Assembly: GCA_017465845.1 (NCBI GenBank) | Contig: JAFTVH010000105.1 | Coordinates: 1 to 36,080 of the forward strand | Origin: Lachnospiraceae bacterium | Lineage (GTDB): Bacteria > Bacillota > Clostridia > Lachnospirales > Lachnospiraceae | DNA: 36,080 nt | Direction of reading: 5' to 3' | Translations under genes and position numbers: made by a program | In this document: piece after piece, positions 8,700-29,019 of the stretch | Layout of the letters: each line of letters opens with the position of its first letter | Numbering within the stretch: position 1 is the first letter of the stretch | Notes under the pieces: generated by a model | Told to the model about the DNA's origin: nothing | Database searches by the model: none | What the model saw: the letters and a program-made list of their open reading frames with translations, nothing else

Positions 8700-8742
8700 G
8701 AATCGCACTTGCTTTTAACGTGGCAGGTGCGATTTTTTTTTC
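8700..8742 (+). terminator. Intrinsic terminator after sbcC
   Basis: AATCGCACTTGC (8701-8712) pairs with GCAGGTGCGATT (8723-8734) apart from one internal mismatch, and the stem runs straight into nine Ts. Confidence 0.88.
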
Positions 8743-8957: not shown

Positions 8958-11183
8958 ATGATCAAGAACAAAAGTTACTTCCCCAGAATATTCAGAGATT
9001 TTTTGTTGACATTGTTAGTACCCATTATTGCACTGGCACTTTTATATCTGCAGGCAGGAAATACCATTGAGGAGCAGATACTGCTTTCCAATAAGAATAC
9101 ATTGAATCAGTTTTTTGAATTGATCGATACCACATTAAGTGAAATGAGATGGACAGGTTATTCGATTGCAAATCATAAAAAATGCAGAGAATATTCGTTA
9201 TATGCCGCTAAAGGAAATGACCGTCTGACTTATCAGGTAAAGGAAATCATTCAGGTGCTGGAAGATGCAGTGAATGATAAATATTATGATCTTCTGATTT
9301 ATTATCCGGGTAACGGGCGTATCATATCCGGGGTATACGGTTCCATGAATTGGGAGGATTATTGTTCTGTTTACTATAGTGGGGAGGAGTGCGAAAAACA
9401 GTTTGGAGATATTCTGGAATGTAACACAAAGGGAGCTTCCTTATATATGATGAAACAGGAAGGGAAAGAACCACTGTTGTGTATCGCAATGAGAAAAAAA
9501 AATGTGGGGGACCATGCGAAGGATTATGTTGTGGTGCAGATCATAGACCCCAAATACTTAAATAAGATCATGACGGAGATGTATCAGCCTGAGGATGGCG
9601 TTCTGCTGATTTTTGATGAAAAAGAGAAATTATTGATCAGCGGGGATAACAGGGAAGAATACCATATGGATGGCTATATAGCAGCAGACATGCCTTATGA
9701 GATAAAGATCAATAACAATAAATATATGATGCAGGTGCAACAGGCTAAAAGTGTACCCGGATATTATGCGGTTGCGATTGATGCCAAGATCTTTTGGGAA
9801 AAATTATCTGAGCTGCGAATCATTTGCATCGTGGGAGGTCTGGCTTGCGCTGTGATCAGCATTTACATTGCATGGCGTGGTTCCAAGCGTACTTACAGTC
9901 CCCTGTGGAACATTGTAAATCACATAGAAGAATACAATTTACTGCAATATGACGCAGAAATGAATTCAGAGGTTGAATTTATCAATAAGATTTTTGAAAA
10001 GGAAGTTAATGAGAGGCGTTATTTAGACAGGAAAGAAAAAGCGGATAAATTGGATAGCTTTATCATCTCACTGCTTTATGGAGATGTGAGTGTAGGGGCA
10101 GGAGAAGATGCATTTATAGAGAATGGGATATCGTTGTGTTCAGACAGATTCAGTGTAGTAGTCATGTCTGTAGTGAAAACCAGGGAAATGGAAAGCGATC
10201 TGCAGGCGTTTGCAATCAAAAATATATTTGAAGAATTATATAATCAGGGAAACAGGGGATATCTTGTCAGAACAGCAGACAATCAATTTGTAAGTCTTAT
10301 CAATATAGGAGAAGCGCTTTCGACAGAGCTTTTATCAGATGTTTTACTGGAAGGTCAAAAATTTGTAAGAGAGCATTTGAATATCATTGTAACGATTGCA
10401 GTAGGCGATATCCATGAAGGGATGGCAGAAATTCCGATGTCTTATAAAGAGGCGAGAGAAGCGCTGCGCTATAAATATTTGTTCGGTGAGGAGAGCTGTA
10501 TCCAATACAGTCAAATCAAAGCAAGAGAACTTAACTATTCCGTATCCGGTGAATCAAGACTGTCCAAGATGGTAATCGGATACATGAAGGATTCTTCGCC
10601 GGCGAAATCTGCCGAGCAGTTTGTACGGGAACTTTTAGAAATGTATGGAATCAATGAACAGGCATCTATGGACACGGTGGAATGCTTTAAATATGAAATG
10701 CTCAGTATCATCAACAAGGCTGTCATGTCTAACAAAGGCGTATTTGACAATTATAAAGAGAGTGTAGAAGAATTGATTTTACAGCCTACACTGGAAAAAT
10801 TCAGGGAGAAATTCATCGATGTGCTGACAAAGCTTTGGGAAAAGGAAAGGGAAAGCATAGAGCAGGAGGATATTTGTAACAGAGTGCGGTCCTATATTTT
10901 GGAGCATTACAGGGAGCCGGAGCTTTCTGTCAATATGTTAGGGGATAAGATGCGGATATCTACCTATTATTTATCAAAGCTGTTCAAGGCCAAATATGAT
11001 ATCTCCATTCCGGATTATATTTCGCAGACGAGAATACGAAGTGCCAAAGATGATTTGAAAAATACGTCAAAAAATATAAAACAGATAGCAGAAGAAAACG
11101 GCTTTTTAAGCAGTACAGTATTTATCAATACCTTTAAAAAGTGGGAAGGAATCACGCCGGGAATCTACCGGAAACTGAAATGA
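8958..11183 (+). CDS. Membrane-anchored AraC-family transcription regulator (YesS/YtdP-like)
   Basis: The 741-residue protein has a transmembrane helix near residues 14-34 and a second near 286-306, so about 250 residues face outward as a probable ligand-sensing domain. A cytoplasmic linker leads to a C-terminal AraC-type double helix-turn-helix (about 641-741, from VRSYILEHY to TPGIYRKLK). This is the layout of one-component regulators such as Bacillus YesS and YtdP, which sit next to Lpl/Ytc-type sugar transporters. It directly precedes such a transporter operon, so it probably activates the promoter at 11227. There is no kinase domain. The signal (an extracellular sugar, or a liganded binding protein) is inferred. 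Confidence 0.87.
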   Translation: MIKNKSYFPRIFRDFLLTLLVPIIALALLYLQAGNTIEEQILLSNKNTLNQFFELIDTTLSEMRWTGYSIANHKKCREYSLYAAKGNDRLTYQVKEIIQVLEDAVNDKYYDLLIYYPGNGRIISGVYGSMNWEDYCSVYYSGEECEKQFGDILECNTKGASLYMMKQEGKEPLLCIAMRKKNVGDHAKDYVVVQIIDPKYLNKIMTEMYQPEDGVLLIFDEKEKLLISGDNREEYHMDGYIAADMPYEIKINNNKYMMQVQQAKSVPGYYAVAIDAKIFWEKLSELRIICIVGGLACAVISIYIAWRGSKRTYSPLWNIVNHIEEYNLLQYDAEMNSEVEFINKIFEKEVNERRYLDRKEKADKLDSFIISLLYGDVSVGAGEDAFIENGISLCSDRFSVVVMSVVKTREMESDLQAFAIKNIFEELYNQGNRGYLVRTADNQFVSLINIGEALSTELLSDVLLEGQKFVREHLNIIVTIAVGDIHEGMAEIPMSYKEAREALRYKYLFGEESCIQYSQIKARELNYSVSGESRLSKMVIGYMKDSSPAKSAEQFVRELLEMYGINEQASMDTVECFKYEMLSIINKAVMSNKGVFDNYKESVEELILQPTLEKFREKFIDVLTKLWEKERESIEQEDICNRVRSYILEHYREPELSVNMLGDKMRISTYYLSKLFKAKYDISIPDYISQTRIRSAKDDLKNTSKNIKQIAEENGFLSSTVFINTFKKWEGITPGIYRKLK

Positions 11184-11210
11184 TGCATGAATTTGGGGTT
11201 TTATCAACGA

Positions 11211-11255
11211 GTTGGGAATCCGAAGATTTACAATAAACACGGGATTTGGTATAAA
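11211..11255 (+). promoter_or_regulatory. Promoter of the first transporter/glycan operon with a possible operator
   Basis: TTTACA at 11227-11232, a 17-base spacer and TATAAA at 11250-11255 form a near-consensus sigma-A promoter. Immediately upstream and touching the -35 box is GTTGGGAATCCGAAGATTT (11211-11229), which resembles repeats at 8921 and 13031. This is a sensible position for an AraC-type activator. The promoter call is firm; the operator is inference. Confidence 0.65.
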
Positions 11256-11333
11256 AAATTCAGATGCAGACAGAGAGCTCACTTATGCATGAACAATTAA
11301 ATATGATAATTTGTACGGAAGGAGCACAAAGAT

Positions 11334-13019
11334 ATGAAAAGAAACCGGTTAAACAAGTTTCTGGGTATTACACTTGCAGGAACCATGGCTTTGGGATTAG
11401 CAGCCTGCGGTAATCAGAATAATGCAGAATCAACGACTGGTTCCAATGCAGGAACAGTTGAACAGGGAAGCAGTGCAGCGGAGGAATCCACAGCAGAATC
11501 CACTGAGGTTGTGGAGGAAGAGCTTACCTATCCCTTAAAGGATGCTTCCAAATTAAGCATGTGGACCTATAATCAGCCCCCTGTAGCTTCTATCTATGCG
11601 GATTGGACAGAATCTCTGTATCATATAGGGTTACAGGAAAATACCGGCGTAGAGGTTGAATGGATTTATCCTGCTGCCGGTGCAAATGTAGACGAAGCAT
11701 ATAATCTGATGCTTACAGACGAAGTGCTTCCGAATATGATCACGAATGACACTTCCCTTTCAGACGCTTTGTTACTGGCACGTGACGGCATGATTTATGA
11801 TCTGACCGATTATCTGCCGGAATATGCACCTGATTATTGGGAATATCTGAATTCCGACCCTGAGTTATTGAGAAGCGTGAAAGCTGACGACGGACGTATT
11901 TATGGTGTGTACGGTCATACAGAGGGTGATTATAACGGAACTTATATCGGACCTGTTATTCGCCAGGACTGGCTGAAGGAATGTGGGCTGGATATGCCTG
12001 TGACTTTGGAAGACTGGGAAGAAGTATTGGTTGCATTTAAAGACAAGTATAATGCAAAGTTTGGTTTTACCAAGAAGAGATATCATATGGGTATTGCATC
12101 CGGCACCAATGCGCAGGCAACTATTTTCGCTTATTCCACCATTGACGGCTGGTATGTGAATAAAGATGGTCAGATAGCACTTGGGCAGATGGATGAAGAG
12201 TGGAAAGAGTCTCTTGAAGTACTGCACAGATGGTATGATATGGGACTGATCGATCAGGACAGCTTTACCATGGATGACAATGCTTTACGTGCTAAGGTAC
12301 TGAATAATGAGGTTGGTGTGTCTATCACAGCACTGAGCCAGATGACCAACTGGATCAATGATGCACAGGCACAGGGTACCGGTGCTGACTGGGTAGGTAT
12401 GGAATATCCCAGAGTAGCAGAAGGCGTTGCTACCTCCAGAATTCAGTCCGGTTCCAGAACGTCTGCTACGGTAACCATGATTACGACTACATGCTCCGAA
12501 GAGGAACTGATCACAGCACTGAAATGGCTGAATTATGGCTTTACAGAAGAAGGCGGTATGTACATCAACTTTGGTAATGAAGGGGAAACCTATACCTTAG
12601 ATGCGGATGGCAATCCTCAGTGGACAGATCTGATCAAGAATGATCCCGATGGCGTATCTGCAGCAGTGAAAAAATATACCGGTGCTCATAGTGGCGTGGT
12701 AGCAACTATCCAGGCAGCAGATCTGGTAAAACTGATCAATGCAGAGACCTCAGCAGCTGCTGTATATGAGTGGATCGATAACACAGATAACAGCAAGTAT
12801 GTTGTACCGAAACTGGCATTGACGGAGGAAGAAAGCATTACCTATAGTGATAAATTTACACCGATCAGTGATTATTGTGCAGAGATGGCACTGAAGTTCA
12901 TTTTAGGGGAAGAGTCACTTGATAATTTTGACGCTTTCATTGAAAAACTGCATACAATGGGAGTTGATGAATGTCAGGCTATCCAGCAGGCAGCATATGA
13001 GCGTTATTTAGCAAAATAA
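11334..13019 (+). CDS. Sugar ABC transporter substrate-binding lipoprotein (LplA/YtcQ type)
   Basis: The 561-residue protein begins with a lipoprotein signal peptide whose lipobox LAAC places the lipidated cysteine at residue 25. An Asn/Ser/Glu-rich tether (about 26-65) follows, then a large bilobal family 1 solute-binding domain. It should sit on the outer face of the membrane and deliver an oligosaccharide to the two permeases downstream. At about 560 residues it matches the large Lpl/Ytc binding proteins, not small monosaccharide binders. The ribosome binding site GGAAGGAG precedes the ATG. It is the first gene after the promoter at 11227, and a terminator-like hairpin follows it. The ligand is not predictable from sequence alone. 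Confidence 0.9.
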   Translation: MKRNRLNKFLGITLAGTMALGLAACGNQNNAESTTGSNAGTVEQGSSAAEESTAESTEVVEEELTYPLKDASKLSMWTYNQPPVASIYADWTESLYHIGLQENTGVEVEWIYPAAGANVDEAYNLMLTDEVLPNMITNDTSLSDALLLARDGMIYDLTDYLPEYAPDYWEYLNSDPELLRSVKADDGRIYGVYGHTEGDYNGTYIGPVIRQDWLKECGLDMPVTLEDWEEVLVAFKDKYNAKFGFTKKRYHMGIASGTNAQATIFAYSTIDGWYVNKDGQIALGQMDEEWKESLEVLHRWYDMGLIDQDSFTMDDNALRAKVLNNEVGVSITALSQMTNWINDAQAQGTGADWVGMEYPRVAEGVATSRIQSGSRTSATVTMITTTCSEEELITALKWLNYGFTEEGGMYINFGNEGETYTLDADGNPQWTDLIKNDPDGVSAAVKKYTGAHSGVVATIQAADLVKLINAETSAAAVYEWIDNTDNSKYVVPKLALTEEESITYSDKFTPISDYCAEMALKFILGEESLDNFDAFIEKLHTMGVDECQAIQQAAYERYLAK

Positions 13020-13027
13020 TATTACCG

Positions 13028-13049
13028 AAGCGGTTGTGAATATCCGCTT
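13028..13049 (+). repeat. Small hairpin carrying the recurrent GAATATCCG motif
   Basis: AAGCGG (13028-13033) pairs with CCGCTT (13044-13049). The sequence from 13031 to 13054 matches that at 8921-8945 with one deletion and three substitutions, one of them at the last base. It lies just after the binding-protein stop codon. Confidence 0.5.
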
Positions 13050-13055
13050 GATTCG

Positions 13056-13095
13056 TAGCAGGGAATGCCTCTGTGAGGATTCCCTGCTATTTTTC
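13056..13095 (+). terminator. Terminator-like attenuating hairpin between binding protein and permeases
   Basis: A perfect 11-pair stem (TAGCAGGGAAT at 13056-13066 with its complement at 13079-13089) encloses a 12-base loop that can pair further, and is followed by TTTTTC. It lies inside the operon, only 17 bases before the next start codon. Partial termination or 3' protection here would give more binding protein than permease, as is common in such operons. Confidence 0.75.
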
Positions 13096-13111
13096 TAAGG
13101 AGATCAGACTT

Positions 13112-14023
13112 ATGTTATCAGGCAAAGCAATTGTAAAGGATTTCAAAAAAAATAAACTGATATATCTTATGGTATTACCGGTTATTATTTATCTTATCCT
13201 TTTTTGTTACAAGCCGATGTATGGTATCATCATTGCCTTTCAGAGATTTCGTCCCGGACTTGGAATAGAAAGAAGCCCCTGGGTTGGTCTGAACAATTTT
13301 GTCAGGTTCTTTAAAGATATTTATTTCTGGAGGGTTGTGAAGAACACTTTTACAATCAGCTTTTTAAACATTCTGTTTACGTTCCCGGCACCGATTTTAT
13401 TGGCATTATTACTCAATGAGGTTCAATGTTCATGGTTCAAGCGTACCGTTCAGACTGTTACCTATCTTCCGCACTTTATCGCGATGGTAGTAGTGTGCGG
13501 TCTGATCAATCAGTTTTGCCGGAGTGATGGATTGATTAATGATGTCATTGCCTTTTTTGGAGGTGAGAGGGCAAACCTGCTTATTAAAACGGAGATGTTT
13601 TATCCCATTTATATCATTTCCGGAATCTGGAAGGAAATCGGATGGAGCTCCATTATTTATCTTGCAACGCTTGCAGGAATTGACCAGGAACAGTACGAGG
13701 CGGCGAAAATTGATGGTGCAGGCAGAATTCAGCAGATGCGTTATATTACGCTGCCGGGGCTGATGCCTACCATATCCATGCTGTTAATCTTAAAAATGGG
13801 TCAGGTCCTGAACATCGGCATGGAGAAGATACTGCTTCTGTATCACGAAATGACATATGAGGTGGCGGATGTTATTTCTACCTATGTCTACCGCAAAGGC
13901 TTGATTGATGCGGACTACAGTTACAGTACCGCAATCGGACTGTTCAATTCCATAGTCAATATTGTGTTTCTGGTAGGTGCTAATAAAATCAGCAAGAAAC
14001 TGGGACAGAGCGGTTTGTTCTAA
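13112..14023 (+). CDS. Sugar ABC transporter permease, LplB type
   Basis: This 303-residue inner-membrane protein has about six transmembrane helices and the ABC-permease EAA loop around EAAKIDGAGRIQQMRYITLP (roughly residues 193-213), which docks the ATPase. The opening MVLPVIIYLILFCYKPMYG is typical of LplB. A longer reading from 13073 would start inside the upstream hairpin; ATG 13112 is preferred because AAGGAG sits 7 bases upstream. It forms a heterodimeric channel with the next gene product, fed by the lipoprotein encoded before it. No ATPase gene is nearby, so a shared MsmX-like ATPase from elsewhere is expected. Confidence 0.92.
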   Translation: MLSGKAIVKDFKKNKLIYLMVLPVIIYLILFCYKPMYGIIIAFQRFRPGLGIERSPWVGLNNFVRFFKDIYFWRVVKNTFTISFLNILFTFPAPILLALLLNEVQCSWFKRTVQTVTYLPHFIAMVVVCGLINQFCRSDGLINDVIAFFGGERANLLIKTEMFYPIYIISGIWKEIGWSSIIYLATLAGIDQEQYEAAKIDGAGRIQQMRYITLPGLMPTISMLLILKMGQVLNIGMEKILLLYHEMTYEVADVISTYVYRKGLIDADYSYSTAIGLFNSIVNIVFLVGANKISKKLGQSGLF

Positions 14024-14042
14024 AAAAAGACAAGGAGACAGT

Positions 14043-14927
14043 ATGCGTAATAGAAAAAAGAAAAAGAAAAGCGTCGAAGATATTATCCTGGACGTCATTA
14101 TATATTCCATATTGATTCTGCTGGCCATAGTGACCTTTTATCCGATGTGGTATGTTGTGGTAGCTTCTTTTAGCTCCGGCAGTTATATCATCAGTCAGGA
14201 AATTCTGTTATGGCCGGGAGACTTTAATCTTGAAGCTTATAAACTTACTTTCCGGCATCCGCTATTAGTGAAAAGCTTCGGGAACAGTTTAATGGTTCTG
14301 GCACTGGGACTGCCTATTAATATCGTTCTGACGGTATTAGCCGGGTATTTTATGTCAAGTACAACAAAGGTATATTGGAAAAAACCGATCATTTATATGA
14401 TTTTATTTACCATGTTCTTTAACGGCGGATTGGTTCCGAACTACTTGAATGTGAAAGATTTAAGAATCTTTAATACCATCTGGGCATTGGTCCTGCCGGG
14501 CGCTTTGAGCGTTTACAATGCCAACATCTGCAAAACAGCCATGGAGGCAATCCCTTACAGTCTGCATGAATCCGCTTATCTGGATGGTGCCAGTGATCTG
14601 AAGGTACTTTTTAAGATTGTACTTCCGTTGATGAAGCCTACCATGGCGGTGCTGCTGCTTTATTATGGAGTAGCCCATTGGAATGCGTGGTTTAATGCTT
14701 CCATCTACATAAGGGATGAACAGAAGCTGCCTGCACAGAATATCCTGCGTGCCGTACTTCTGGAGAATACTACTTTGGCAGAAAGTGCGGGGGACAGCTA
14801 TAATGCCTACGCAGAAGCTATGCAGTATGCTGCGATTGTAATTATTACAGTACCTATCGTATGCGTATATCCTTTCCTGCAGAAGCATTTTGCAAAGGGT
14901 GTTATGATCGGTGCCGTGAAAGGGTGA
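14043..14927 (+). CDS. Sugar ABC transporter permease, LplC/YtcP type
   Basis: The 294-residue protein is the second channel half. It has a basic N-terminus (RNRKKKKKS), about six transmembrane helices, and an EAA-type loop at ESAYLDGASDLKVLFKIVLP. The end QKHFAKGVMIGAVKG is a hallmark of the YtcP family. ATG 14043 is chosen over the longer reading from 13977 because AAGGAG lies 5 bases before it and the longer version overlaps the preceding gene. The spacing of 19 bases to the previous gene and 5 bases to the next shows tight operon packing. Confidence 0.92.
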   Translation: MRNRKKKKKSVEDIILDVIIYSILILLAIVTFYPMWYVVVASFSSGSYIISQEILLWPGDFNLEAYKLTFRHPLLVKSFGNSLMVLALGLPINIVLTVLAGYFMSSTTKVYWKKPIIYMILFTMFFNGGLVPNYLNVKDLRIFNTIWALVLPGALSVYNANICKTAMEAIPYSLHESAYLDGASDLKVLFKIVLPLMKPTMAVLLLYYGVAHWNAWFNASIYIRDEQKLPAQNILRAVLLENTTLAESAGDSYNAYAEAMQYAAIVIITVPIVCVYPFLQKHFAKGVMIGAVKG

Positions 14928-14932
14928 TTGTT

Positions 14933-17239
14933 ATGGGAGAAATTGGAAGATTTAACGACATAGGAAATGAGTATGAAATTGTAAAGCCCGATTTAAAACG
15001 TCCCATGATGAATTACTTCTGGAATCAAAAGATTTTATCTGCCGTAAATCAGAATGGAGGCGGTAACGGCGGTTATCGCGGTATGACATCCCAGTATATC
15101 GGTGAGGTCGGGAAACCGCGGGCGCAGCTTCTGGCTAACGGCAATCGTTATTTTTACATCAGGGATCATCTGACCGGAAAACTTTGGAATCCGGGCTGGT
15201 ATCCTGTAAAGGAAGCTTTAGACGCGTATCATTGTGTGCATGGACTTGGCTACAGCACTATTTGCGGCACAAAAGACAAAATATGTGTGACTTTAAATGG
15301 TACCGTAAGTCATGATGAGCCGGCGGAAATGTGGCAGATCAGAATCGTGAATAAAGATGAAAAGGAGCGTCTGGTGACGATATATCCTTTTGTAGAATTC
15401 GATCTGTCAGGATATCCTCACAGAAGTGAATATGAAAGCTGGGTACGTGCTTATTATGATGCAGAGAAGCATTTGATCTTTGCAGAAAACAATGCGGAAG
15501 AACGCCCCTATGACTGGTTCCATGGTTTCTGTAGTACAGATTATGAAGTGACAGCTTTTGACACTTCCAAGAAACGCTTTATCGGTACCTATGGTGACAT
15601 TCGTATGCCGGATGCTTTGGCGGCAGGAAAACTCGGAAATTCATTGGCCGCATGTGAAACTATGGTCGGTGTTTTTGAGTTGAATGTGAAGTTGGCAGCA
15701 GGCGAAGAAAAGGAGCTTCACTTTATTGTCGGAAGTGCAGACAGACGTGAGACTGCAGAAAGGATTTCTGCGAAGCTGTTATCCTCGGGCCGCTTCGAGG
15801 AAGCTCTCAAATTACATGCTGCGGATAAGGAAAAGCTTTGCAGTCTGATGAATATACAGACACCGGACAAAAAGGTAAATGATCTGGCTAACTATTGGTT
15901 AAAGCAGCAGGTGCAGCTTTGTGTGGAAGTTGGCCGGGCAGGCAGCAAAGGCTTCAGAGATCAGCTGCAGGATTCCTGGGGCATTGCAGCGTTTAATCCC
16001 GCTCTTGCAAGAGGAAAGATCCTGGAGGCTTTGGAGCACATACACGAATCCGGTGCCTGTGCAAAGCTCTGGAATCCTTTAAGGGATGAAGAGTACTCAG
16101 ACTTACCGACTTGGGTAGCACCGACCATCAATGCGTACATCAAGGAATCCGGTGATATCGGGTTCTTACGTGAAAAAGTATGTTACATGGAAGGGAAAGT
16201 AGATACTGTTTGGGAACATATTCTGACCACGACAAGATACTCTTCTGATGATCTGGGAGCGCACAATCTTGTGCTGGCTCATATGGGTGAATGGAACGAT
16301 TCGCTGAACGGTCTTGGCAGAGGCGGCAAGGGAGAAAGCGTCTGGACGTCAATTGCGCTGTATCAGTCTTTACATGCCGTTGCAGAGATGGCCCGTGAAA
16401 TTGTAAAGGATGCTTCCGTAGAACAGGAGATGTTGGAACGTGCTGAGCGTATCAAGAAAGCAGTGAATGAGCATGGCTGGGATGGCGAGTGGTATCTGAC
16501 CGGCTATCAGGATGACGGCACGCCGGTAGGCTCCAAGGTAAACAAGGAAGGTATGATTTATCTGAATGGCCAGACCTGGGCAACGATGCTTGGCATAGCA
16601 GAGGAAGAACGTGCTAAGAAGTGTCTGGCAGCTGTGGATAAGTATCTGGATTGTGATTACGGCCCGTTGACATGTTATCCGCCATATACCAAATATGACC
16701 CGAAAGTAGGCCGGCTTACAGGATTTGTACCCGGTGTGTGGGAGAATGGTACTACTTACTGCCATGGTGCAGCTTTTAAGGTAGTAAGTGATTTTATTCA
16801 GGGCAGAGGTGACGAAGGGTACGAGACTCTTTTGAAGATCATGCCGGACAGCAAATGGAATCCATCTGAACATTCAGGCTGCGAGCCATATGCTTTTACC
16901 AATATGTATCTGGGACCGGACAATCCGAGAAAGGGTGAAACCTCTTTTGCATGGATCACCGGTACCGCCGGCTGGGTATACCGTTCCATTGCACAGTATA
17001 TGCTGGGCTTCCATCCTGAACATGACGGTTTTACCATTGATCCATGTATTCCGAAAGCATGGAAGAAGGTGACCGGTACACGTCAGTTCCGTGGTGATAT
17101 CTACGAAATGGAGATCATCAATGACAACGGAAGCTGTAAGGGTGTGAAAGAATTGTATGTGGATGGTACAAAGGCAGCATGCAATAGAATCCCTCTTTTT
17201 GGTGATGGAAAGGTACATAATATTAAAGTAGTGCTGTAG
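14933..17239 (+). CDS. GH94-family glycoside phosphorylase (cellobiose-phosphorylase-like)
   Basis: This 768-residue cytoplasmic protein has no signal peptide. It shows the GH94 layout: an N-terminal beta-sandwich with a GRFNDIGNEYEI opening and RDHLTGKLWNPGW, then an (alpha/alpha)6 barrel with HMGEWNDSLNGLGRGGKGESVW. Asp456 in the EWND motif is the likely general-acid position. ENGTTYCHGAAFK and WITGTAGWVYRS (T678 and G680) correspond to the phosphate-binding region, and the LGF-x-P-x-x-DGFTIDPCIP end is typical. It would split an imported beta-linked disaccharide or oligosaccharide with phosphate, giving a sugar 1-phosphate and saving ATP. It starts 5 bases after the permease gene, so it most likely acts on that importer's cargo. 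The exact specificity (cellobiose, cellobionate, chitobiose, laminaribiose or something new) cannot be read off. Confidence 0.85.
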   Translation: MGEIGRFNDIGNEYEIVKPDLKRPMMNYFWNQKILSAVNQNGGGNGGYRGMTSQYIGEVGKPRAQLLANGNRYFYIRDHLTGKLWNPGWYPVKEALDAYHCVHGLGYSTICGTKDKICVTLNGTVSHDEPAEMWQIRIVNKDEKERLVTIYPFVEFDLSGYPHRSEYESWVRAYYDAEKHLIFAENNAEERPYDWFHGFCSTDYEVTAFDTSKKRFIGTYGDIRMPDALAAGKLGNSLAACETMVGVFELNVKLAAGEEKELHFIVGSADRRETAERISAKLLSSGRFEEALKLHAADKEKLCSLMNIQTPDKKVNDLANYWLKQQVQLCVEVGRAGSKGFRDQLQDSWGIAAFNPALARGKILEALEHIHESGACAKLWNPLRDEEYSDLPTWVAPTINAYIKESGDIGFLREKVCYMEGKVDTVWEHILTTTRYSSDDLGAHNLVLAHMGEWNDSLNGLGRGGKGESVWTSIALYQSLHAVAEMAREIVKDASVEQEMLERAERIKKAVNEHGWDGEWYLTGYQDDGTPVGSKVNKEGMIYLNGQTWATMLGIAEEERAKKCLAAVDKYLDCDYGPLTCYPPYTKYDPKVGRLTGFVPGVWENGTTYCHGAAFKVVSDFIQGRGDEGYETLLKIMPDSKWNPSEHSGCEPYAFTNMYLGPDNPRKGETSFAWITGTAGWVYRSIAQYMLGFHPEHDGFTIDPCIPKAWKKVTGTRQFRGDIYEMEIINDNGSCKGVKELYVDGTKAACNRIPLFGDGKVHNIKVVL

Positions 17240-17324
17240 CATATGGCAAGTATTTTGTAAAGATAAAAATATGTACTGCGTGCATTCGGGAGAGCACAAG
17301 GTATTTTGAAAGGAGAACGAAAAA

Positions 17325-20300
17325 ATGCAGAAGTTTTATAGAATCATTAGTGCAATGCTGGCTGTCATTTTTATGGTTAGTAATACCGGAGTAATACAGG
17401 CAGCTGCAGAAACAGAGAGTGTGGCAACTTATGCAGAAGATGATTTTGAAAGCTACGAAACATTACCTGCAGCCTATATTATCTCAGGAAATGGAACGGG
17501 TGAATTGGCTTTGAATGACGGCAATCAATATTTCAAGCTTAGCGCACCTGCTGCAACTTCGCCAACTTTGTCATACGCATTCAGCAGTGCGTATACAAAA
17601 GATCAGACAGTGCCCCTTTGGTTGGAAATAACATTGTCCGGTCAGGAAGGCGGCTCTTTTGAAACATGGCATTTGAGAGCAAGAGTGGCTAAGGGAAGCG
17701 CTAAAGAACCAATCTTAACCGGTAAGGGCAATGATGTATATGCCGGAGAGACTAAGCTTACAACACTCAGGGCGGATGAATTTACCAAGTTTATCGTTAA
17801 GATAACGTACAATGCAGAAACATCGGTATTTGATTACTCTGTATGGGTGGACAAATATACAGGTGATGCTCAGGGAACAGGCAGTTTGGCAATCGATGAC
17901 TTTGGTAAAATTAATTTGTATGCAAATAATAGTAAAAGTACTGTAGAAAAGCACTTAGGTATTGATAATTTTGCGGCTTATGCAAGTGCTGAATACCAGG
18001 CAGTTTTTCCGGAAACAGTTCCGAGCGATCCAAGTGACGGCGATGCATCAGGTGACGGCAGTGATCCGAGCGGCGGCGATGCATCAGGTGATGAAAATGA
18101 GCCAAGTGTAGCTCCGGATGAAGACTATGGGAAGCCTGCTGAGCCGAAAGTAGGTACCGTGTTATATGAAAATACTTTTAGCGACATAACAGCAACAGAT
18201 TATTCAAACGGATATGCTACTGTGAGCATTGATTTAAAAGATGCTTCCGGTACCGTTGGTACTGCGGAAGAAGGATACCTGGAGTTTGTTTGTAATGATG
18301 CAGTAATTGGTGAGCAGTATTTCCAGATTGCATTTGACAAGGCGATTGAAAGTTCACCACTGTGGATAGGAATGAAGGTGGCATCAGGCGATAAAACACC
18401 TGTTGATATATCTTTCCGGGCTTGCGGCGGTGAAACTACGAAGAAAACAAACTTATGCAACATCAGTAATGCAGTAATATTGGGTTCAGATAATACAACT
18501 GAGATTACCACACTCAGTACAGAGTGGGTGGAGCTTTTGTTCAAACTGGATTTGGCGAATATGAAGTACACTGCATATGTAGATGGTATCGGAAAATATA
18601 CAGGAAAACTGGAATTTTCAGATAATACCTTTAAACGCTTATGGATTTATATTACACAAAATACAGAGAATGCGGGTGCTGTTTTAAAGATTGATGATTT
18701 TAAGGTATTTGCAGAGGATATTGTGACAGCAGGGAATACAGAAATCCCGGTTGTTGGTACAGATGTAGAAATGGACCACCCCGGACTGGAAGATTTTGCT
18801 AATGGTATTGCTGTAATGGCAGGTCAGTCTAAGGCATATGTGAATGGAACATTAACTGATATTGATGCTGAGGCCGGGTTGGCAGAGACAGGAGACGATG
18901 TACTTGTACCGGGTTCTTTCATCAGTACTTATCTTGGTGTGCAGGTGGACAGTGCAGCCCAGATGTATTCTTTAAGTGCAGCAGCTGCCGACGCAGGAAA
19001 AACGGTTTCCTGGGATTCCAGAGGATTGCTGGTAGTAACAGATGATGGCGTGACGGTAGATCAGAAGCTTATGACGCTGTTGGCCGGATATCTGGAGACA
19101 GGTGTAGAAGCGACCAACTATGCTGTTTATCCTGAATTTACTCAGGATATTATTGATAAAGCGGTTGCGGTGCAGCCGTCAGGCTGGCAGCCGAATAAAG
19201 GTAATGACAATGCTGCCCAAAACTGTGCAGAAGCACTTTATTATTTAAGCCTCATTACAAAATTGGATCCCCAGGCAGCAGCTACGGACGGAACGCTTTG
19301 TAAGGATGCGGCATTGAAACAGCTGCGTTTCCTGATTGCAGGCGGAAACGAACCGTTTGCAAGTACAGGTGCATATTGGGGACATGCTGTTGTATCTTCC
19401 GCTTTAACATTAATTAAAAATACAGACACTATTTATGAGGAACTGACAGCAGAGGAAAAAGATCGTATGGATTGGCTCATGAAAGCACTTGCTATTTCCG
19501 GCAACTGGGGCTTTAACGATGCCAACAATTATGATACAGGAGTTGCTTTGTTAGGTAACTTTAATAAGTACTGGAATCCGAATTTCAGAAATACATACCT
19601 TACGGTTGTACTGAATGCATCTATGTATTTTGGTACAAATGAGGATGGTTCTTCTAAACTGGATGATATTTTCCTTGATTTTGATTATGAGACTTACATC
19701 AAAAAGTTTGAAGAACTTGGTTTTACTAATATTTTAGGGGCATGGACTACCGTAGATTATAATGGAGTCAGCATCGGCAAATATATGGAAGAAGGCGGCC
19801 AGGTTGTTATGAGCAGCGGTGCCAGTGGCGGAAGCGGTAAAGGTGTTAAAGTCGCATTTTCATACAACGGCTATAATGCAACTCAGGTGCTGGAGATCTT
19901 TCATGGGCTTATAGATTATACCTATGCCTTTAATGTCATGAATTCATACAATACAGATAGTGAATATGAGCGTTGCTATATTATTTCCGGCAAAGTATCA
20001 CCACTTACCGGCCAGATGGGTATGCTCCGGGAATTTGCAGCCCATGCAGGCAGAAGCCGGGTAACATATTGCTATGACAGTTATATGATTTTAAATACCG
20101 TGCTGGCAAATATGAAGCTGTTTGGCGGTTGGGACTCTTCCACACAACAGATGCGTGAGTACGATAACAGAATCTATGTCGGTAACGAAGACCTGATTTT
20201 CAAAATGCAGCAAGGATATCACGGTCATTCCAATGGTACTGCTGCCAATGAATACGAGTATACCTTTAGTGACAGAGGAGTAGATTTTATAAAGGATATT

Positions 20301-21404
20301 TGGAGAAACTTCCATTGCATGTCAAATGAGCAGGTAACTACAATGGAGAATCCATATCAGGAAGCGCTTCCGGCAGAACCCAAAGATGGTATTACCGAAG
20401 CACCTGAAGATTCCTTTGTTTCTGTTAAATTTGCAGAAGGCGACTATTTTACCGAGGAGTCTTACTACAAAATCGGTGAGAATTTAAAGAATGAAACGAT
20501 CGAATTTGATGTTGTGATAGGCGATAATATTAATCCTTCAGCCTACGGCAGTGTCATAGCGATAGATAAGCAGGGTGATGTCATCACTCCGAAATTTACC
20601 AAAATGATTCTTCAGTTCAGAAGCGGCAAAATCAGAATCATGAATGGTTCCACTTATGAAGACACACATTTGACCTTTCATGAGAATTATCGTTTCCATG
20701 TAAAAGCCACTTTTGATGTGAATGCACAAAAATATTCTGTAGAAATCAATCGTACTTATCCTACTGTCGGGGCAGTGTATGAAGCGGATAATTTTGATTT
20801 CAGAACGAACACCAGAGAAATTGATTATGTAGATTCTCTGAGTATTGCGAAAGAAACTGAAAACAGTACCATGTGGGTGGAGAACTTTAAGCTGATTGGA
20901 GCGGAAACAGAGCCAAGTGAACCAAGCGAGCCGAGTGAACCGAGCGAGCCGAGTGAACCGAGTGAGCCGAGTGAACCGAGTGAGCCGAGTGAACCGAGTG
21001 AGCCAAGTGAGCCAAGTGAACCGAGCGAGCCGAGTGAACCGAGTGAGCCGAGTGAGCCAAGTGAGCCGAGTGAACCCAGTGAACCGAGTGAGCCAAGTAA
21101 GCCGAGCAATCCGAGTGAACCAAGTGAACCGAGTGAACCGAGTGAGCCAAGTGAGCCCACAGCTCCAAGCGAGCCGAGTAACACAACAGAGTCAAGTGAG
21201 TCAGAGCCAAGCGAGTCAACGGAGCCGGAGGAAGAGGCCGACGATGATCAGGCTGCAGCAGAGGACTCCGTGGTAAATGCCGACACTACAGGCAATGTAC
21301 CGGCAACAGGAGACGATTCCAATATTGCATTCTTCGTGATGGCAGCGCTTGCTTCCCTTGCGGTGGCTGTGATTTGCATAAGATTCAGACGCAAAGAAGA
21401 ATGA
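17325..21404 (+). CDS. Cell-wall-anchored multidomain protein with a toroid-like (putative polysaccharide lyase/hydrolase) core
   Basis: The 1359-residue protein has a signal peptide (about 1-28, ending VIQAAA), two beta-sandwich domains (about 35-220 and 278-468) split by a Ser/Asp/Gly linker, and a copper-amine-oxidase-N-like domain (about 485-590, GQSKAYVNG to LLVVTDDGV). A helical region (about 600-1025) holds GNWGFNDANNY (726-736) and YHGHSNG (965-971), reminiscent of alpha/alpha-toroid polysaccharide lyases. A third sandwich (about 1035-1185), a Pro-Ser-Glu repeat stalk (from 1196) and a PATGD sortase-type signal with helix and RFRRKEE tail follow. It is probably the extracellular depolymerising or binding component for the operon's glycan. 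I do not recognise an exact family, so catalytic activity is inference. The ribosome binding site is AAAGGAG. Confidence 0.8.
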   Translation: MQKFYRIISAMLAVIFMVSNTGVIQAAAETESVATYAEDDFESYETLPAAYIISGNGTGELALNDGNQYFKLSAPAATSPTLSYAFSSAYTKDQTVPLWLEITLSGQEGGSFETWHLRARVAKGSAKEPILTGKGNDVYAGETKLTTLRADEFTKFIVKITYNAETSVFDYSVWVDKYTGDAQGTGSLAIDDFGKINLYANNSKSTVEKHLGIDNFAAYASAEYQAVFPETVPSDPSDGDASGDGSDPSGGDASGDENEPSVAPDEDYGKPAEPKVGTVLYENTFSDITATDYSNGYATVSIDLKDASGTVGTAEEGYLEFVCNDAVIGEQYFQIAFDKAIESSPLWIGMKVASGDKTPVDISFRACGGETTKKTNLCNISNAVILGSDNTTEITTLSTEWVELLFKLDLANMKYTAYVDGIGKYTGKLEFSDNTFKRLWIYITQNTENAGAVLKIDDFKVFAEDIVTAGNTEIPVVGTDVEMDHPGLEDFANGIAVMAGQSKAYVNGTLTDIDAEAGLAETGDDVLVPGSFISTYLGVQVDSAAQMYSLSAAAADAGKTVSWDSRGLLVVTDDGVTVDQKLMTLLAGYLETGVEATNYAVYPEFTQDIIDKAVAVQPSGWQPNKGNDNAAQNCAEALYYLSLITKLDPQAAATDGTLCKDAALKQLRFLIAGGNEPFASTGAYWGHAVVSSALTLIKNTDTIYEELTAEEKDRMDWLMKALAISGNWGFNDANNYDTGVALLGNFNKYWNPNFRNTYLTVVLNASMYFGTNEDGSSKLDDIFLDFDYETYIKKFEELGFTNILGAWTTVDYNGVSIGKYMEEGGQVVMSSGASGGSGKGVKVAFSYNGYNATQVLEIFHGLIDYTYAFNVMNSYNTDSEYERCYIISGKVSPLTGQMGMLREFAAHAGRSRVTYCYDSYMILNTVLANMKLFGGWDSSTQQMREYDNRIYVGNEDLIFKMQQGYHGHSNGTAANEYEYTFSDRGVDFIKDIWRNFHCMSNEQVTTMENPYQEALPAEPKDGITEAPEDSFVSVKFAEGDYFTEESYYKIGENLKNETIEFDVVIGDNINPSAYGSVIAIDKQGDVITPKFTKMILQFRSGKIRIMNGSTYEDTHLTFHENYRFHVKATFDVNAQKYSVEINRTYPTVGAVYEADNFDFRTNTREIDYVDSLSIAKETENSTMWVENFKLIGAETEPSEPSEPSEPSEPSEPSEPSEPSEPSEPSEPSEPSEPSEPSEPSEPSEPSEPSEPSEPSEPSKPSNPSEPSEPSEPSEPSEPTAPSEPSNTTESSESEPSESTEPEEEADDDQAAAEDSVVNADTTGNVPATGDDSNIAFFVMAALASLAVAVICIRFRRKEE
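20910..21189 (+). repeat. 9-base tandem repeat encoding a Pro-Ser-Glu stalk
   Basis: About 30 units of GA(A/G)CC(A/G)AG(T/C) encode Glu-Pro-Ser repeats within the surface protein. Drift to PSK, PSN and PTA units occurs toward the 3' end. Synonymous alternation of GAG/GAA and AGT/AGC varies along the array. It forms an extended wall-spanning spacer in front of the anchor signal, and is likely to change length by slippage. Confidence 0.95.
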
Positions 21405-21429
21405 TATAACCAAGAATAATATAAAAGTT

Positions 21430-21456
21430 CAGACGGCGGTGATGATCCGCCGTCTG
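21430..21456 (+). other. Strong GC-rich hairpin without a U tract
   Basis: CAGACGGCGG (21430-21439) pairs perfectly with CCGCCGTCTG (21447-21456) around a 7-base loop. No T-run follows on the + strand, so it is more likely an mRNA-stabilising or processing hairpin between the surface-protein gene and the oxidoreductases than a full terminator. Confidence 0.55.
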
Positions 21457-21504
21457 CTCATATCAGCAGAAGAAAACTGATAAAGAGCAGAGAGGAGAGA
21501 GGGA

Positions 21505-22719
21505 ATGGCAAAATATATATCAGAAACCTTACAGACGCCCGTAGCGTATGAATGCGATGTCCTGGTAGCCGGAGGCGGAATCGCCGGTGTGTCCGCTGCT
21601 GTTGCTGCGGCAAGGCAGGGCTCTAAGGTAATCCTTTTGGAGAAACAGTTCCTGTTAGGCGGGCTTGCAACAGCAGGACTGATAACGATATACCTTCCGT
21701 TATGCGACGGAAAAGGGCATCAGGTCAGCTTTGGACTTGCCGAAGAACTTTTTCGATTATCCATTCAATATGGTTATGAAGCAAAGTATCCGTCGGCGTG
21801 GCTGGAGGAGCAGAGCAAAGAAGGCACAGCACAAGACAGACAGAAACAGCGCTTTGAAGTCCGGTTCAATGCCCAGCTTTTTGCAATCGCCATGGAACAG
21901 CTTTTGAAAAAGGAAGGCGTGACGATTCTTTACGGAACAGCAGTCTGCGGCGTGCAGGTGGAAAAGGATAAAATTGCTTCCCTGATCATTGAAAACAAGT
22001 CCGGAAGAAGTGCTGTGAAAGCCAAGTCTGTAGTAGACACAACGGGTGATGCAGATATCTGCATGATGGCAGGCGAAGCTATTGAACTTTTTGAAGGGCA
22101 AAATGCATTGGCAGCCTGGTACTATAGTGCAGGAGAAAAAGGATTTGACTTAAATATGCTGGGTGTCATAGATATCTCTGATGAAGAAAATGACGGAACC
22201 ATGATCAAGTTGATTCCAAAAACATTTCAGGGCGTGGATGCTATGGAGTTAAGTGAAATGGTTCAGAATGCACATGATGCGATCTTAGATGATTTCAGGA
22301 AAAAGCGTATGCAGGATGAAACCTTATTGCCCACTACATTTGCAACCATACCACAGGTCAGGATGACGCGCCGACTTTCCGGAAAGTATACAATGACGCT
22401 GCAGGATGAAAGAAGAGAATTTGAGGATAGTATCGGTATTATAAGTAATTGGAAAAAGAGAGGACCTGTATATGAGATCCCGTTTTCAGCATTACACGGT
22501 ACGAAGATCAAAAACCTGATCACGGCAGGCAGAAGTATTTCCGCACAGGATTCGATGTGGGATGTGACACGTGTGATTCCGGCATGTGCAGTTACGGGAG
22601 AAGCTGCCGGAACTGCAGCGGCTATGACAGATGATTTTGAAGCACTGGATGTAGCTGAACTTCAAGGGCGTCTGGAAAAAGCCGGAGTGAAATTATTTAT
22701 CAAAAGTCTTGAGATGTAA
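21505..22719 (+). CDS. FAD-dependent oxidoreductase (PF12831-like)
   Basis: The 404-residue cytoplasmic protein has an N-terminal Rossmann motif GGGIAG (residues 23-28, in VLVAGGGIAGVSAAVAAA), an acidic residue closing the second strand (LLEK), and the GG-motif LLGGLATAGL typical of glutathione-reductase-type flavoproteins. VVDTTGDADI and the C-terminal TAGRSISAQDSMWDVTR...TGEAAGTAAA complete the FAD site. The family is common in glycan-degradation loci, but its substrate is generally unknown; sugar or polyol oxidation is a guess. The ribosome binding site AGAGGAGAGAGGG lies just upstream. It is followed within 45 bases by a larger relative, suggesting a partnership. Confidence 0.85.
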   Translation: MAKYISETLQTPVAYECDVLVAGGGIAGVSAAVAAARQGSKVILLEKQFLLGGLATAGLITIYLPLCDGKGHQVSFGLAEELFRLSIQYGYEAKYPSAWLEEQSKEGTAQDRQKQRFEVRFNAQLFAIAMEQLLKKEGVTILYGTAVCGVQVEKDKIASLIIENKSGRSAVKAKSVVDTTGDADICMMAGEAIELFEGQNALAAWYYSAGEKGFDLNMLGVIDISDEENDGTMIKLIPKTFQGVDAMELSEMVQNAHDAILDDFRKKRMQDETLLPTTFATIPQVRMTRRLSGKYTMTLQDERREFEDSIGIISNWKKRGPVYEIPFSALHGTKIKNLITAGRSISAQDSMWDVTRVIPACAVTGEAAGTAAAMTDDFEALDVAELQGRLEKAGVKLFIKSLEM

Positions 22720-22763
22720 GCCCATGAAATAGTAACAGATACATTATTATAGGAAAGGTTGAT

Positions 22764-24977
22764 ATGAAACAAAAAGAAATTGAGATAATTGCGGATTTAG
22801 TGATTGCCGGTGCCGGTTTGCCCGGTATATGTACTGCATTGCAGAGTGCCAGGATGGGACTGAAGACTGCGCTGATCAACAATCGCCCATATTTTGGCGG
22901 TAACAGCAGTGCGGAGCTTATGATCATGATCGTAGGTGCCAGTGGAATGCAGGAATTCAATTATAATGCCAGGGAGACGGGCATCGTAGAAGAATTGTTT
23001 CTTGAAAATTTATATAAAAATCCCGAAAAAAACAGATACGTCTGGGATGGAATTTTATTAGATAAACTAATGGCAGAGGAAAACCTGATGCTGTTCCCCA
23101 ACACCTGTATTGATACAGTGGAAATGACAGACGAAGGAATGATCCGGTCTTTGTCGGGACTGCAGACTACCACAGAGAAGCGGTTTATTTTTCAGGCACC
23201 TTTGTTTGTTGACGATACCGGGGATGGTACTGTGGGATATCTTGCCGGTGCAGAGTATCGCTATGGACGGGAAGCAAGTGCAGAGTTTGACGAGAAGTTT
23301 GCACCTGCTGAGGCGGATGACGGAGTATTGCCCAGTACTATGGTATTTTTTGCGCACGACAAAGGATATCCGGTGAGCTACAAGCCGCCGCGTTTTGCAA
23401 AAGATTACACCAAGACGGACGTATTGGAACATCGTATCATTCCACCTGATAATTTTCACCAGTTTCAGTGGTTTTATGAGCTGGACGGCCGAATGAACCA
23501 GATGGAAGATTATGAGGAGATCCTGCAGCATCATCGTGAACTGGTTTACGGAGTGTGGGATTATATCAAGAACAGCGGTAAATATGATTCAGATAATTAT
23601 GAGTTCAGCTACATTTCTCCCATTGCAGGAAAAAGGGAATCCAGAAGGCTGATAGGCGATTATATTTTAACAGAAGGTGATATCACGGATCAGAAGGATT
23701 TTCCCGATGCCATCGGCCATGGCGGATGGTCCATAGATCTCCATGCACTGGACGGATTTTACTCTAAGGAAATCATAAACAGACATATTTACCTGAAGGG
23801 TATCTACCAGATACCGTATCGCTGCTGTTATTCCAAAGATGTGAAAAATCTCTTCATTGAAGGGCGCTGTATGTCGGTTTCTCATGTGGCGCTGGGAACT
23901 GTCCGCACAATGGCAACACTCTCTACAGCAGGCCAGGCAAATGCTGTTTCGGCCTATCTGTGCAAAAAATATGGTGTGCTGCCCGGACAGGTAGGAGAAG
24001 AACATCTGGAAGAGCTGCAGAACCTCCTTTTGGAAGCAGACCAGTATATTGTAGGGAAGAAATATGCTGATCCGGATAATTTGGCGCAAACAGCGGAAGT
24101 TTCGGCATCGTCTGTAAAACCGTTGTCAAATCTTTCTCAGGAGTTGGTGCAGCGGATGGAGCATCATATTGCGCTTTCACTGCCGTTTGACGGAAGAGTA
24201 AACAGCATATGCTTATATGGGAAAGCGGAGCAGGATACGATTTTAAGTTATCGTATTTACAGTGCGGATAAGCCTGAGAACTATAATCCGGCAGCAGAGT
24301 TATATCAGGGCATGGTTAAGGTGTCAGAATCTAAAATGACAGAAGAAATCGTTTTACCGATTGATCAGGAATTTGTTCCGGGACATTATTTTATTGAGCT
24401 GGAGCAAAATACGGCACTGGAACTGGCGATGTCAAAATACAGCTACACCGGAGCAGTGACTTCCGTTAAGAAGCCAAATAGTGATTGTGCGCATGTAGAT
24501 TTTGCCAGCGGGCTGGTGAAAGAGCATGTGTGGAAAGTGCTGGAACCCTGCCTGTGCTTTCGTGTAAGCTGTGAGAAGTCAGTGTTTGGTGCTGAGAATG
24601 TGACCAATGGTTATACCCGACCATATCAGCTGAGCAACATCTGGCATTCTGACGGAAAGGAGAATCAATGGTTAAAGCTTAGCTGGGATGAGCCGCAGAG
24701 AATATCGAAATTAACGCTTTTCTTCGATTCTAATTTAAATCGATTTTGCAGGAGTGCTGATAAGGATAATGTGGATCTGTTTTATCGGATGGTAAAAGAT
24801 TATGCAGTATATTATAAAGATGCGGACGGGAAGAAACGATTATTGTACGAGATAAACGGGAATTTCCAGAGAGTGAATGAGCTTCATTTTGCACCGGTAG
24901 ATACAGATACTATTTTTGTGGAATTCAGGGAAACCCATGGACAGGGATTTTTTAGTGTGTATGAAATAAGATGTTAA
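22764..24977 (+). CDS. FAD-dependent oxidoreductase with a discoidin-like C-terminal domain
   Basis: This 737-residue protein has an N-terminal FAD fold (GAGLPG at 16-21; FGGNSSAELMIM; VDDTGDGTVGYLAGAEYRYG; FIEGRCMSVSHVALGTVRTM). An alpha-beta substrate domain lies in between. The last part (about 610-737) has NVTNGYTRPYQLSNIW, QWLKLSWDEP and LTLFFDSNLN, reminiscent of F5/8 (discoidin) sandwiches. There is no signal peptide, so the sandwich acts inside the cell. It is the last gene before a terminator. A neighbour of a GH94 phosphorylase and a surface enzyme, it may oxidise a sugar or glycosyl moiety, but the reaction is unknown. The ribosome binding site is AGGAAAGG. Confidence 0.82.
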   Translation: MKQKEIEIIADLVIAGAGLPGICTALQSARMGLKTALINNRPYFGGNSSAELMIMIVGASGMQEFNYNARETGIVEELFLENLYKNPEKNRYVWDGILLDKLMAEENLMLFPNTCIDTVEMTDEGMIRSLSGLQTTTEKRFIFQAPLFVDDTGDGTVGYLAGAEYRYGREASAEFDEKFAPAEADDGVLPSTMVFFAHDKGYPVSYKPPRFAKDYTKTDVLEHRIIPPDNFHQFQWFYELDGRMNQMEDYEEILQHHRELVYGVWDYIKNSGKYDSDNYEFSYISPIAGKRESRRLIGDYILTEGDITDQKDFPDAIGHGGWSIDLHALDGFYSKEIINRHIYLKGIYQIPYRCCYSKDVKNLFIEGRCMSVSHVALGTVRTMATLSTAGQANAVSAYLCKKYGVLPGQVGEEHLEELQNLLLEADQYIVGKKYADPDNLAQTAEVSASSVKPLSNLSQELVQRMEHHIALSLPFDGRVNSICLYGKAEQDTILSYRIYSADKPENYNPAAELYQGMVKVSESKMTEEIVLPIDQEFVPGHYFIELEQNTALELAMSKYSYTGAVTSVKKPNSDCAHVDFASGLVKEHVWKVLEPCLCFRVSCEKSVFGAENVTNGYTRPYQLSNIWHSDGKENQWLKLSWDEPQRISKLTLFFDSNLNRFCRSADKDNVDLFYRMVKDYAVYYKDADGKKRLLYEINGNFQRVNELHFAPVDTDTIFVEFRETHGQGFFSVYEIRC

Positions 24978-25018: not shown

Positions 25019-25050
25019 AGATCCTCAGTAATTAAACTGAGGATTTTTCT
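25019..25050 (+). terminator. Intrinsic terminator closing the first glycan operon
   Basis: ATCCTCAGT (25021-25029) pairs with ACTGAGGAT (25036-25044), followed by TTTTCT. It separates the oxidoreductase operon from the second transporter operon. Confidence 0.85.
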
Positions 25051-25165: not shown

Positions 25166-25194
25166 TTGATAATCGGAAATTGGATTTGTATAAT
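25166..25194 (+). promoter_or_regulatory. Consensus sigma-A promoter of the second transporter operon
   Basis: TTGATA (25166-25171), a 17-base spacer and TATAAT (25189-25194) are nearly perfect consensus. A short palindrome AAGCG-CAT-CGCTT lies upstream at about 25138-25150 and could be an operator. Transcription near 25201 rules out the longer start reading of the next gene. Confidence 0.8.
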
Positions 25195-25228
25195 GACCTC
25201 ATCAAATTTGTCAGAGAGGAGCATGGAC

Positions 25229-26140: not shown

Positions 26141-26152
26141 GGAGGTGTTAAC

Positions 26153-27070: not shown

Positions 27071-27101
27071 TTACGCGTTGCGTCAAAAAATCAGGTATGA
27101 T

Positions 27102-27129
27102 ATCTTGGCAGTAAAGCTGCCCTAAGATA
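27102..27129 (+). other. Bulged hairpin between permease and binding-protein genes
   Basis: TATCTT-GGCAG pairs with CTGCC-AAGATA apart from a two-base bulge on the 3' side. No T-run follows, so it is not a terminator. It may stabilise or separate the binding-protein message. Confidence 0.4.
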
Positions 27130-27167
27130 AATGAAAAGGCACATAAAATGTGCAGAAGGAGGTTTCT

Positions 27168-28952: not shown

Positions 28953-28993
28953 AGATTATGGTACAATTCTGAATATATCCGATGATTGATATT

Positions 28994-29019
28994 ACAAGGG
29001 AGGCGTCGGCTTCCCTTGT
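28994..29019 (+). terminator. Stable hairpin after the second binding-protein gene
   Basis: ACAAGGGA (28994-29001) and TCCCTTGT (29012-29019) pair, and the stem extends inward to a GTCG tetraloop. The following sequence (GGTGTTGT) is only mildly T-rich, so it may be a weak terminator or a stabilising hairpin that lowers expression of the regulator behind it. Confidence 0.5.

Follow-up and report, generated by a model that had tools for sequence, protein, structure and literature searches.

Gene content and boundaries of the locus

The window, by which we mean the entire 36,080-nucleotide stretch analysed, is the whole of contig C79 in a 4.19-Mb assembly of 201 contigs that is 85% complete. 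Between positions 8958 and 24977, eight genes follow one another on the + strand: AraC1, SBP1, Perm1a, Perm1b, GH94, a surface protein, FAD1 and FAD2. An earlier note on this DNA had named a regulator, an importer, a GH94 phosphorylase, a wall-anchored protein and two FAD oxidoreductases here, and Pfam and NCBIfam searches confirmed them all, on one strand and at the following positions.

8958..11183, + strand: AraC1, a 741-aa membrane-bound AraC-family regulator (PF12833 at 60.9 bits, PF00165, PF17853)
11334..13019, + strand: SBP1, a 561-aa oligosaccharide-binding lipoprotein (phmmer matches to 5xs8, 3.5e-37, and to AlgQ2)
13073..14023, + strand: Perm1a, an ABC permease (PF00528)
13977..14927, + strand: Perm1b, an ABC permease (PF00528) whose frame, as listed, shares 47 bp with Perm1a
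14936..17239, + strand: GH94 glycoside phosphorylase (PF17167 at 316.4 bits, 3.3e-94; PF06165 at 154 bits, 6.4e-45)
17325..21404, + strand: surface protein of 1359 aa with an LPXTG-type anchor (TIGR01167 at 18.2 bits, cut-off 15.9)
18975..20444, + strand: conserved but rare domain within the surface protein (33% identity to L008, 29% to the L226 domain)
21430..21456, no strand assigned: GC-rich hairpin between the surface gene and FAD1, without a T run 3' of it on the + strand
21505..22719, + strand: FAD1, a 404-aa PF12831 flavoprotein (196.9 bits)
22764..24977, + strand: FAD2, a 737-aa PF12831 flavoprotein with a C-terminal discoidin-like region (245.1 bits)
25021..25044, no strand assigned: terminator-like hairpin after FAD2, listed on the - strand by the scan; on the + strand TTTTTC follows (by eye)

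Intergenic gaps within the run range from -47 to 150 bp, and 188 bp separate position 24977 from what follows. Another terminator-like hairpin lies 5' of the run at 8700-8735; the hairpin scan found 18 in the region against 13.2 in shuffled sequences, so that about 13 are to be expected by chance. The single strand, the short gaps and the closing hairpin count for reading these genes as one operon. The run brings together a regulator, a binding protein, permeases and enzymes for glycans, which is the make-up of a Gram-positive glycan-use locus. No ABC ATPase was found in the 8958-24977 run, and an Rfam search gave no match over the gathering score.

Regulator, importer and surface protein

AraC1 carries the Pfam domains HTH_18 and GGDEF_2, and two hydrophobic stretches, one N-terminal and one in the middle of the protein, are visible by eye. 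SBP1 has no Pfam match; it begins with a lipobox-like LAACG (by eye), and its nearest PDB chains in a phmmer search are 5xs8/5gub and AlgQ2. It is distantly related to Smon0123 of the glycosaminoglycan (GAG) import cluster Smon0120-0127 of Streptobacillus moniliformis, and both loci encode ABC import of oligosaccharides. They differ in that the Smon0123 ligand residues are mostly replaced in SBP1 and that the window has no recognised GH88 or lyase family. We considered SBP1 as an importer of uronate disaccharides and rejected the idea: among the seven side-chain contacts of Smon0123 in the aligned stretch, one is identical (Gln405) and one conservative (Arg393 to Lys), while Tyr146, Arg204, Lys210, Tyr409 and Glu410 are replaced (all by eye). 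Ser287, a main-chain contact, is Met in SBP1, and His36 precedes the aligned stretch (also by eye).

The surface protein has a signal-peptide-like N-terminus and a stalk of Ser-Glu-Pro repeats, both seen by eye, in addition to its LPXTG anchor. The protein may have the toroid-like fold named in the earlier note. Apart from a marginal Cu_amine_oxidN1 stretch it matches no Pfam family, and no PDB relative of its conserved domain was found. This domain is rare, occurring in one of 150 genomes of the family (its own) and in three of 391 genomes of the class, namely its own, G371 and, marginally, G341, where the match spans 75 residues and was not confirmed by a gene-level search. The single match in genome_contigs, L008, is 33% identical over query residues 82-496, and its fetched stretch contains neither a GH94 nor a PF12831 gene. 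In G371 (L226:1-6156) the domain sits inside a 2051-aa protein together with segments that look CBM96-like and dockerin-like by eye. This company fits an extracellular glycan role for the surface domain.

A heparinase II/III-type lyase was also considered for this protein and set aside, there being no Hepar_II_III or DUF4962 domain and no Pfam or PDB relative; against profiles of two heparinase-like proteins, the domain reached a probability of 0.2%. More broadly, hhalign gave it 0.1-0.3% against the two heparinase-like proteins, GH94, GH88, GH127 and one 799-aa protein of L217 (profiles or single sequences).

The GH94 phosphorylase

The listed reading frame of the GH94 gene starts at 14861, the domain match begins at its residue 48, and the alignments with relatives start only a few residues from the ATG at 14936. 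Both Pfam domains score well over their cut-offs (27 bits for PF17167, 23 bits for PF06165), and the catalytic Asp and the phosphate-site His and Thr are kept; in CgCBP these are presumably Asp490, His666 and Thr731. The donor-site Trp and Arg are likewise kept in the alignment, and the donor site looks normal.

The acceptor site is different. Cellobiose phosphorylases have Glu, Tyr and Lys there, which we take to be residues 649, 653 and 658 of CgCBP, and the window enzyme has Arg, Phe and Trp, so cellobiose is an unlikely substrate. Compared with the cellobiose phosphorylases 3QDE and 2CQS, it thus shares the two Pfam domains, the catalytic Asp, the phosphate-site His and Thr and the donor Trp and Arg (31% identity to 3QDE over 803 columns), but differs in this triple and falls on a separate branch of the tree. 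That tree holds 59 of 73 matches, after duplicates and pieces shorter than 680 aa were dropped. The Arg/Phe/Trp triple occurs in three of the 59 sequences (the window, G493 and G619), which together form one branch; Glu, as in cellobiose phosphorylases, is found in 29 and Arg in 17. With 17 of 59 GH94 proteins carrying it, the acceptor-site Arg was discarded as proof of an acidic acceptor. As a separate observation, three loci in G118 and G060 (L133, L134 and L135) share a conserved gene group, made up of a pair of GH3-like genes, one large glycosidase-like gene, a transporter gene and a GH94 gene. That GH94 has Arg/Met/Phe at the acceptor site and belongs to another GH94 group; the other labels were assigned by eye.

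Two characterised enzymes offer further comparisons. In the cellobionic acid phosphorylase SdCBAP (4ZLE/4ZLI), Arg609 and Lys613 are presumably the carboxylate-binding residues, with 609 contacting the gluconate carboxylate. The window GH94 has Arg at position 609 of 4ZLE by ungapped register but Phe at the position taken as Lys613, so the residue pair is incomplete, and it scores 276 bits against the cellobionic acid phosphorylase versus 396 bits against cellobiose phosphorylase. The Saccharophagus cellobionic acid phosphorylase has been solved with a glucosyl-glucuronate (PMC8741936), and a GH94 enzyme can therefore hold a uronate acceptor. Positions of the solabiose phosphorylase PBOR_28850 can be computed as offsets from His611 and Thr676 (PMC8741936), where Thr676 is equated with the leading Thr of the TGT motif. 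By these offsets, which involve no direct alignment, the window GH94 resembles it in having Trp and Phe at the Trp603 and Phe672 positions, that Phe lying four residues before the phosphate-site Thr; it differs in having Gly at the Thr337 offset, five residues before the RD Arg, if the stretch is gap-free. Judged from these residues, the acceptor is probably a sugar other than glucose, with acids, galactose-like sugars and cyclitols all candidates.

The two flavoproteins

FAD1 and FAD2 both belong to the PF12831 FAD_oxidored family, at scores far above its cut-off of 27 bits, and neither shows a signal peptide by eye. FAD2 departs from the family in its long C-terminal region, in which F5/F8-type matches stay below cut-off. 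No NCBIfam model reached its cut-off among 25 of the 95 listed for FAD1 and all 12 listed for FAD2. A GMC domain is absent from both proteins (Pfam). Like the FAD-GO glycoside oxidoreductases of the GMC type, for which flavin oxidation in glycoside breakdown is described (PMC4650693), they may act on sugars, but they belong to another protein family. No reaction for PF12831 flavoproteins showed in the literature listings searched, and a study of the Brucella ovis flavoproteome names PF12831 once.

The genome itself holds 29 PF12831 pieces, 26 of them over the cut-off, in many contexts; some proteins yield two pieces. Two such genes stand side by side in four of 21 FAD2 loci (L206, L208, L212 and L213), and with one gene between them in L210. 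Side-by-side pairs are also present in G174 (L070) and on contig C98 of the same genome, and L064 is among the pair loci. The PF12831 pair, found in several loci, is thus a recurring arrangement, and the neighbouring proteins may work as partners.

Two further observations concern FAD2. Window positions 23038-23545, within the gene, are 94% identical over 508 bp to L058:10734-11241 on contig C119, where the copy stands alone within a 231-aa open frame; this copy is a gene remnant or a recombination scar. In three genomes, FAD2-type genes adjoin URO-D-like genes (L206:12762-13937, identified by Pfam, and L203:11011-12192 and L218:10538-11617, identified by a profile match).

Recurrence of the association in other genomes

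Of 200 genomes of the family, the genome itself included, 11 hold FAD1 relatives (E <= 1e-60) and 85 hold GH94 relatives. Both occur together in this genome, G149 and G201, and in the latter two the listed matches lie on different contigs. Outside the genome, GH94 matches reach at most 36% identity in the 200-genome family sample and at most 37% in a further 100 genomes from the genus. In the class sample of 391 genomes, two are closer, at 74% (G493) and 44% (G619).

G493 belongs to another family of the class. Here a gene for a heparinase-like protein is followed by GH94 (74%), FAD2 and GH2; the FAD2 is full length, with 55% identity over 739 columns, and the gap between GH94 and FAD2 is 9 bp by the longest frame, or 18 bp with the start placed at the fourth codon. 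Such high identity across families suggests horizontal transfer, as judged from the sequences, and neither gene was found at E <= 1e-110 in three further genomes of G493's family. The link appears again on contig C130 of the window's own genome, where an AraC gene, a FAD1-type gene (37% to FAD1), a binding protein (32%), two permeases and a second GH94 (29%) form one run. In G463, GH94 and a FAD2-type gene lie about 2 kb apart on the same strand, and in G419 a FAD1-like gene lies about 5 kb from GH94, with two opposite-strand genes in between.

To count such cases we took neighbourhoods from the genomes of all ten FAD1 matches outside the genome, from 21 of 57 such FAD2 matches (top and full-length ones preferred) and from 15 GH94 loci, comprising 11 of 19 such class matches and two each from the family and genus samples. 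Loci measured at most 20 kb and many ended at contig ends, so that "no GH94" means none within the fetched stretch. GH94 was found in two of the 21 FAD2 loci (G493 and G463) and in none of the ten FAD1 loci; conversely, a PF12831-type gene was found in two of the 15 GH94 loci (G493 and G419). A six-frame search recovered FAD1 in L128 and a match in L132 and left the GH94 counts unchanged.

Under a uniform model with rough densities (141 GH94 matches in 200 family genomes, assumed to measure about 3.1 Mb each), 0.08 GH94 genes are expected in the 21 FAD2 loci, and the probability of two or more is about 0.003. Setting aside G493, first met via its GH94, leaves one in 20 loci, with a probability of about 0.08 for one or more at the same length. 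Within the genome, two of five GH94 genes over the cut-off co-occur with PF12831 genes (P about 0.05; the uniform model behind this figure takes no account of the clustering of sugar genes). GH94 is thus probably found with these flavoproteins more often than by chance, in an association far from an obligate system. The earlier note had read the run as a single pathway and proposed looking for the same gene set elsewhere. That GH94 and these flavoproteins keep company is borne out by G493, where GH94 and FAD2 are adjacent, and by C130, G463 and G419; a conserved set is not, since the full set occurred in no other genome searched and all ten FAD1 loci and 19 of the 21 FAD2 loci are without GH94.

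Genomic context of related genes

Genes beside the relatives give some clues to the chemistry. In G619, the same-strand run that holds the GH94 (44%) also contains an esterase-like gene, IolO (315.5 bits against a cut-off of 300) and an isomerase resembling IolB, which at 183 bits stays below its cut-off of 205. IolO has been described as a 5-keto-L-gluconate 4-epimerase of Thermotoga, and an IolO relative makes D-tagaturonate (PMC12632266). In G149 (L125:9554-18495), a FAD1 relative (54%) adjoins IolB (233.6 bits, cut-off 205), and the locus also holds genes resembling EtfA and GlcD, each scoring below its cut-off, along with sugar-kinase-like and class II aldolase genes. This setting hints at a flavoprotein step in a pathway of the inositol type.

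A FAD2-type gene in G526 accompanies genes for a heparinase-like protein, GH88, a binding protein and two GH127-like proteins, and G419 has GH94 and GH28, with the FAD1-like gene further on. Other neighbours speak against a narrow reading: FAD1 relatives adjoin GH3 in G201 and G051 and a GH2-like gene on contig C88 of the window's own genome (by eye), and elsewhere they lie in loci where no glycosidase was recognised. Window-type GH94 genes of other branches lie near rhamnosidase-like genes in G661, G579 and G295 (by eye). Taken together, the neighbouring genes point to acids or cyclitols as substrates, each clue coming from a single locus. The suggestion in the earlier note that a uronate may be involved gains circumstantial backing from these neighbours and loses some from SBP1, which has few of the contacts that Smon0123 makes with its uronate disaccharide.

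A proposed pathway and its alternatives

The best-supported reading, which we hold tentatively, is that the locus serves to import a beta-glucoside whose acceptor part is not glucose, to split it by phosphorolysis and to oxidise the acceptor by means of the flavoproteins. It builds on the gene content and order, the recurrent GH94-flavoprotein neighbours, the intact catalytic residues of GH94 and its non-cellobiose acceptor site. The surface protein would hold a polysaccharide at the wall, or possibly cut it, and SBP1, Perm1a and Perm1b would import the oligosaccharide under the control of AraC1. In the cytosol, GH94 would then remove the non-reducing beta-glucosyl unit with phosphate, yielding alpha-glucose 1-phosphate and a non-glucose second sugar, and FAD1 and FAD2, also cytosolic, would oxidise either that sugar, for which a uronate, aldonate or cyclitol is most likely, or the next product. 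The substrate, any cutting by the surface protein, the placement in the cytosol, and both what the flavoproteins catalyse and when they act are our inferences. The component parts are of known kinds, and the pairing of GH94 with flavoproteins is little studied; in the literature searched, no paper brought GH94, a phosphorylase and an FAD-dependent oxidoreductase together.

A bolder form of this reading, which we regard as unlikely, is an undescribed anaerobic route. Here the Arg/Phe/Trp enzymes of the window, G493 and G619 would represent a new GH94 specificity that cleaves a beta-glucosyl-uronate, -aldonate or -cyclitol, and the PF12831 tandem would oxidise the acid or cyclitol set free, handing the electrons to an electron-transfer flavoprotein or a comparable carrier and feeding the 5-keto-L-gluconate/tagaturonate or inositol pathways.

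Sugar importers and glycosidases are recurrent neighbours of PF12831 flavoproteins, and knowing the acceptor of the GH94 would point to a candidate substrate for these flavoproteins. Phosphorylases of new specificity have a further use in the synthesis of rare disaccharides.

The chief rival to a joint pathway, and one we take to be quite possible, is that two modules stand side by side. GH94 and the transporter would use one glucoside, the flavoproteins would serve another sugar task that shares the inducer, and the run would be a patchwork of large, mobile sugar-gene families. The many contexts of the 29 PF12831 pieces in the genome fit this picture, as do the FAD1 and FAD2 relatives fetched mostly away from GH94, the hairpin at 21430-21456 that splits the surface gene from FAD1, and the 508-bp FAD2 remnant (94%) alone on C119. 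What it accounts for less well is the direct adjacency of GH94 and FAD2 in G493 and the second cluster of GH94 and a FAD1-type gene on C130.

Two alternatives remain. The locus might be of the solabiose type, with GH94 splitting beta-glucosyl-(1,3)-galactose or another neutral disaccharide like it and the flavoproteins as accessories; the Trp and Phe at the computed Trp603 and Phe672 positions agree with this and the Gly at the Thr337 offset, if gap-free, does not (both by offset from PMC8741936), and we consider it rather improbable. About as improbable is an order in which the flavoproteins act first, oxidising the imported glycoside, for example to a keto-sugar, before GH94 or an elimination cleaves it in the manner of keto-glycoside routes. 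In GMC, a different flavoprotein family, FAD-dependent 3-oxidation is known to precede deglycosylation (PMC4650693), and TIM barrels of the AP_endonuc_2 type are encoded close to some PF12831 genes, such as on contig C45 of the same genome. However, FAD1 and FAD2 lack a GMC domain, Pfam recognised no TIM-barrel isomerase or keto-sugar hydrolase in the operon, and the donor site of GH94 is normal.

Surroundings of the locus

Elsewhere in the window, a second same-strand run at 25166-34891 encodes two more permeases along with another binding protein, another AraC regulator and GH106-like (PF17132) and GH43-like proteins, and is possibly co-regulated with the first. Upstream of sbcDC, positions 220-3909 encode an LPXTG-like metallophosphoesterase surface protein (PF00149), whose anchor and LamG-like stretches were recognised by eye.
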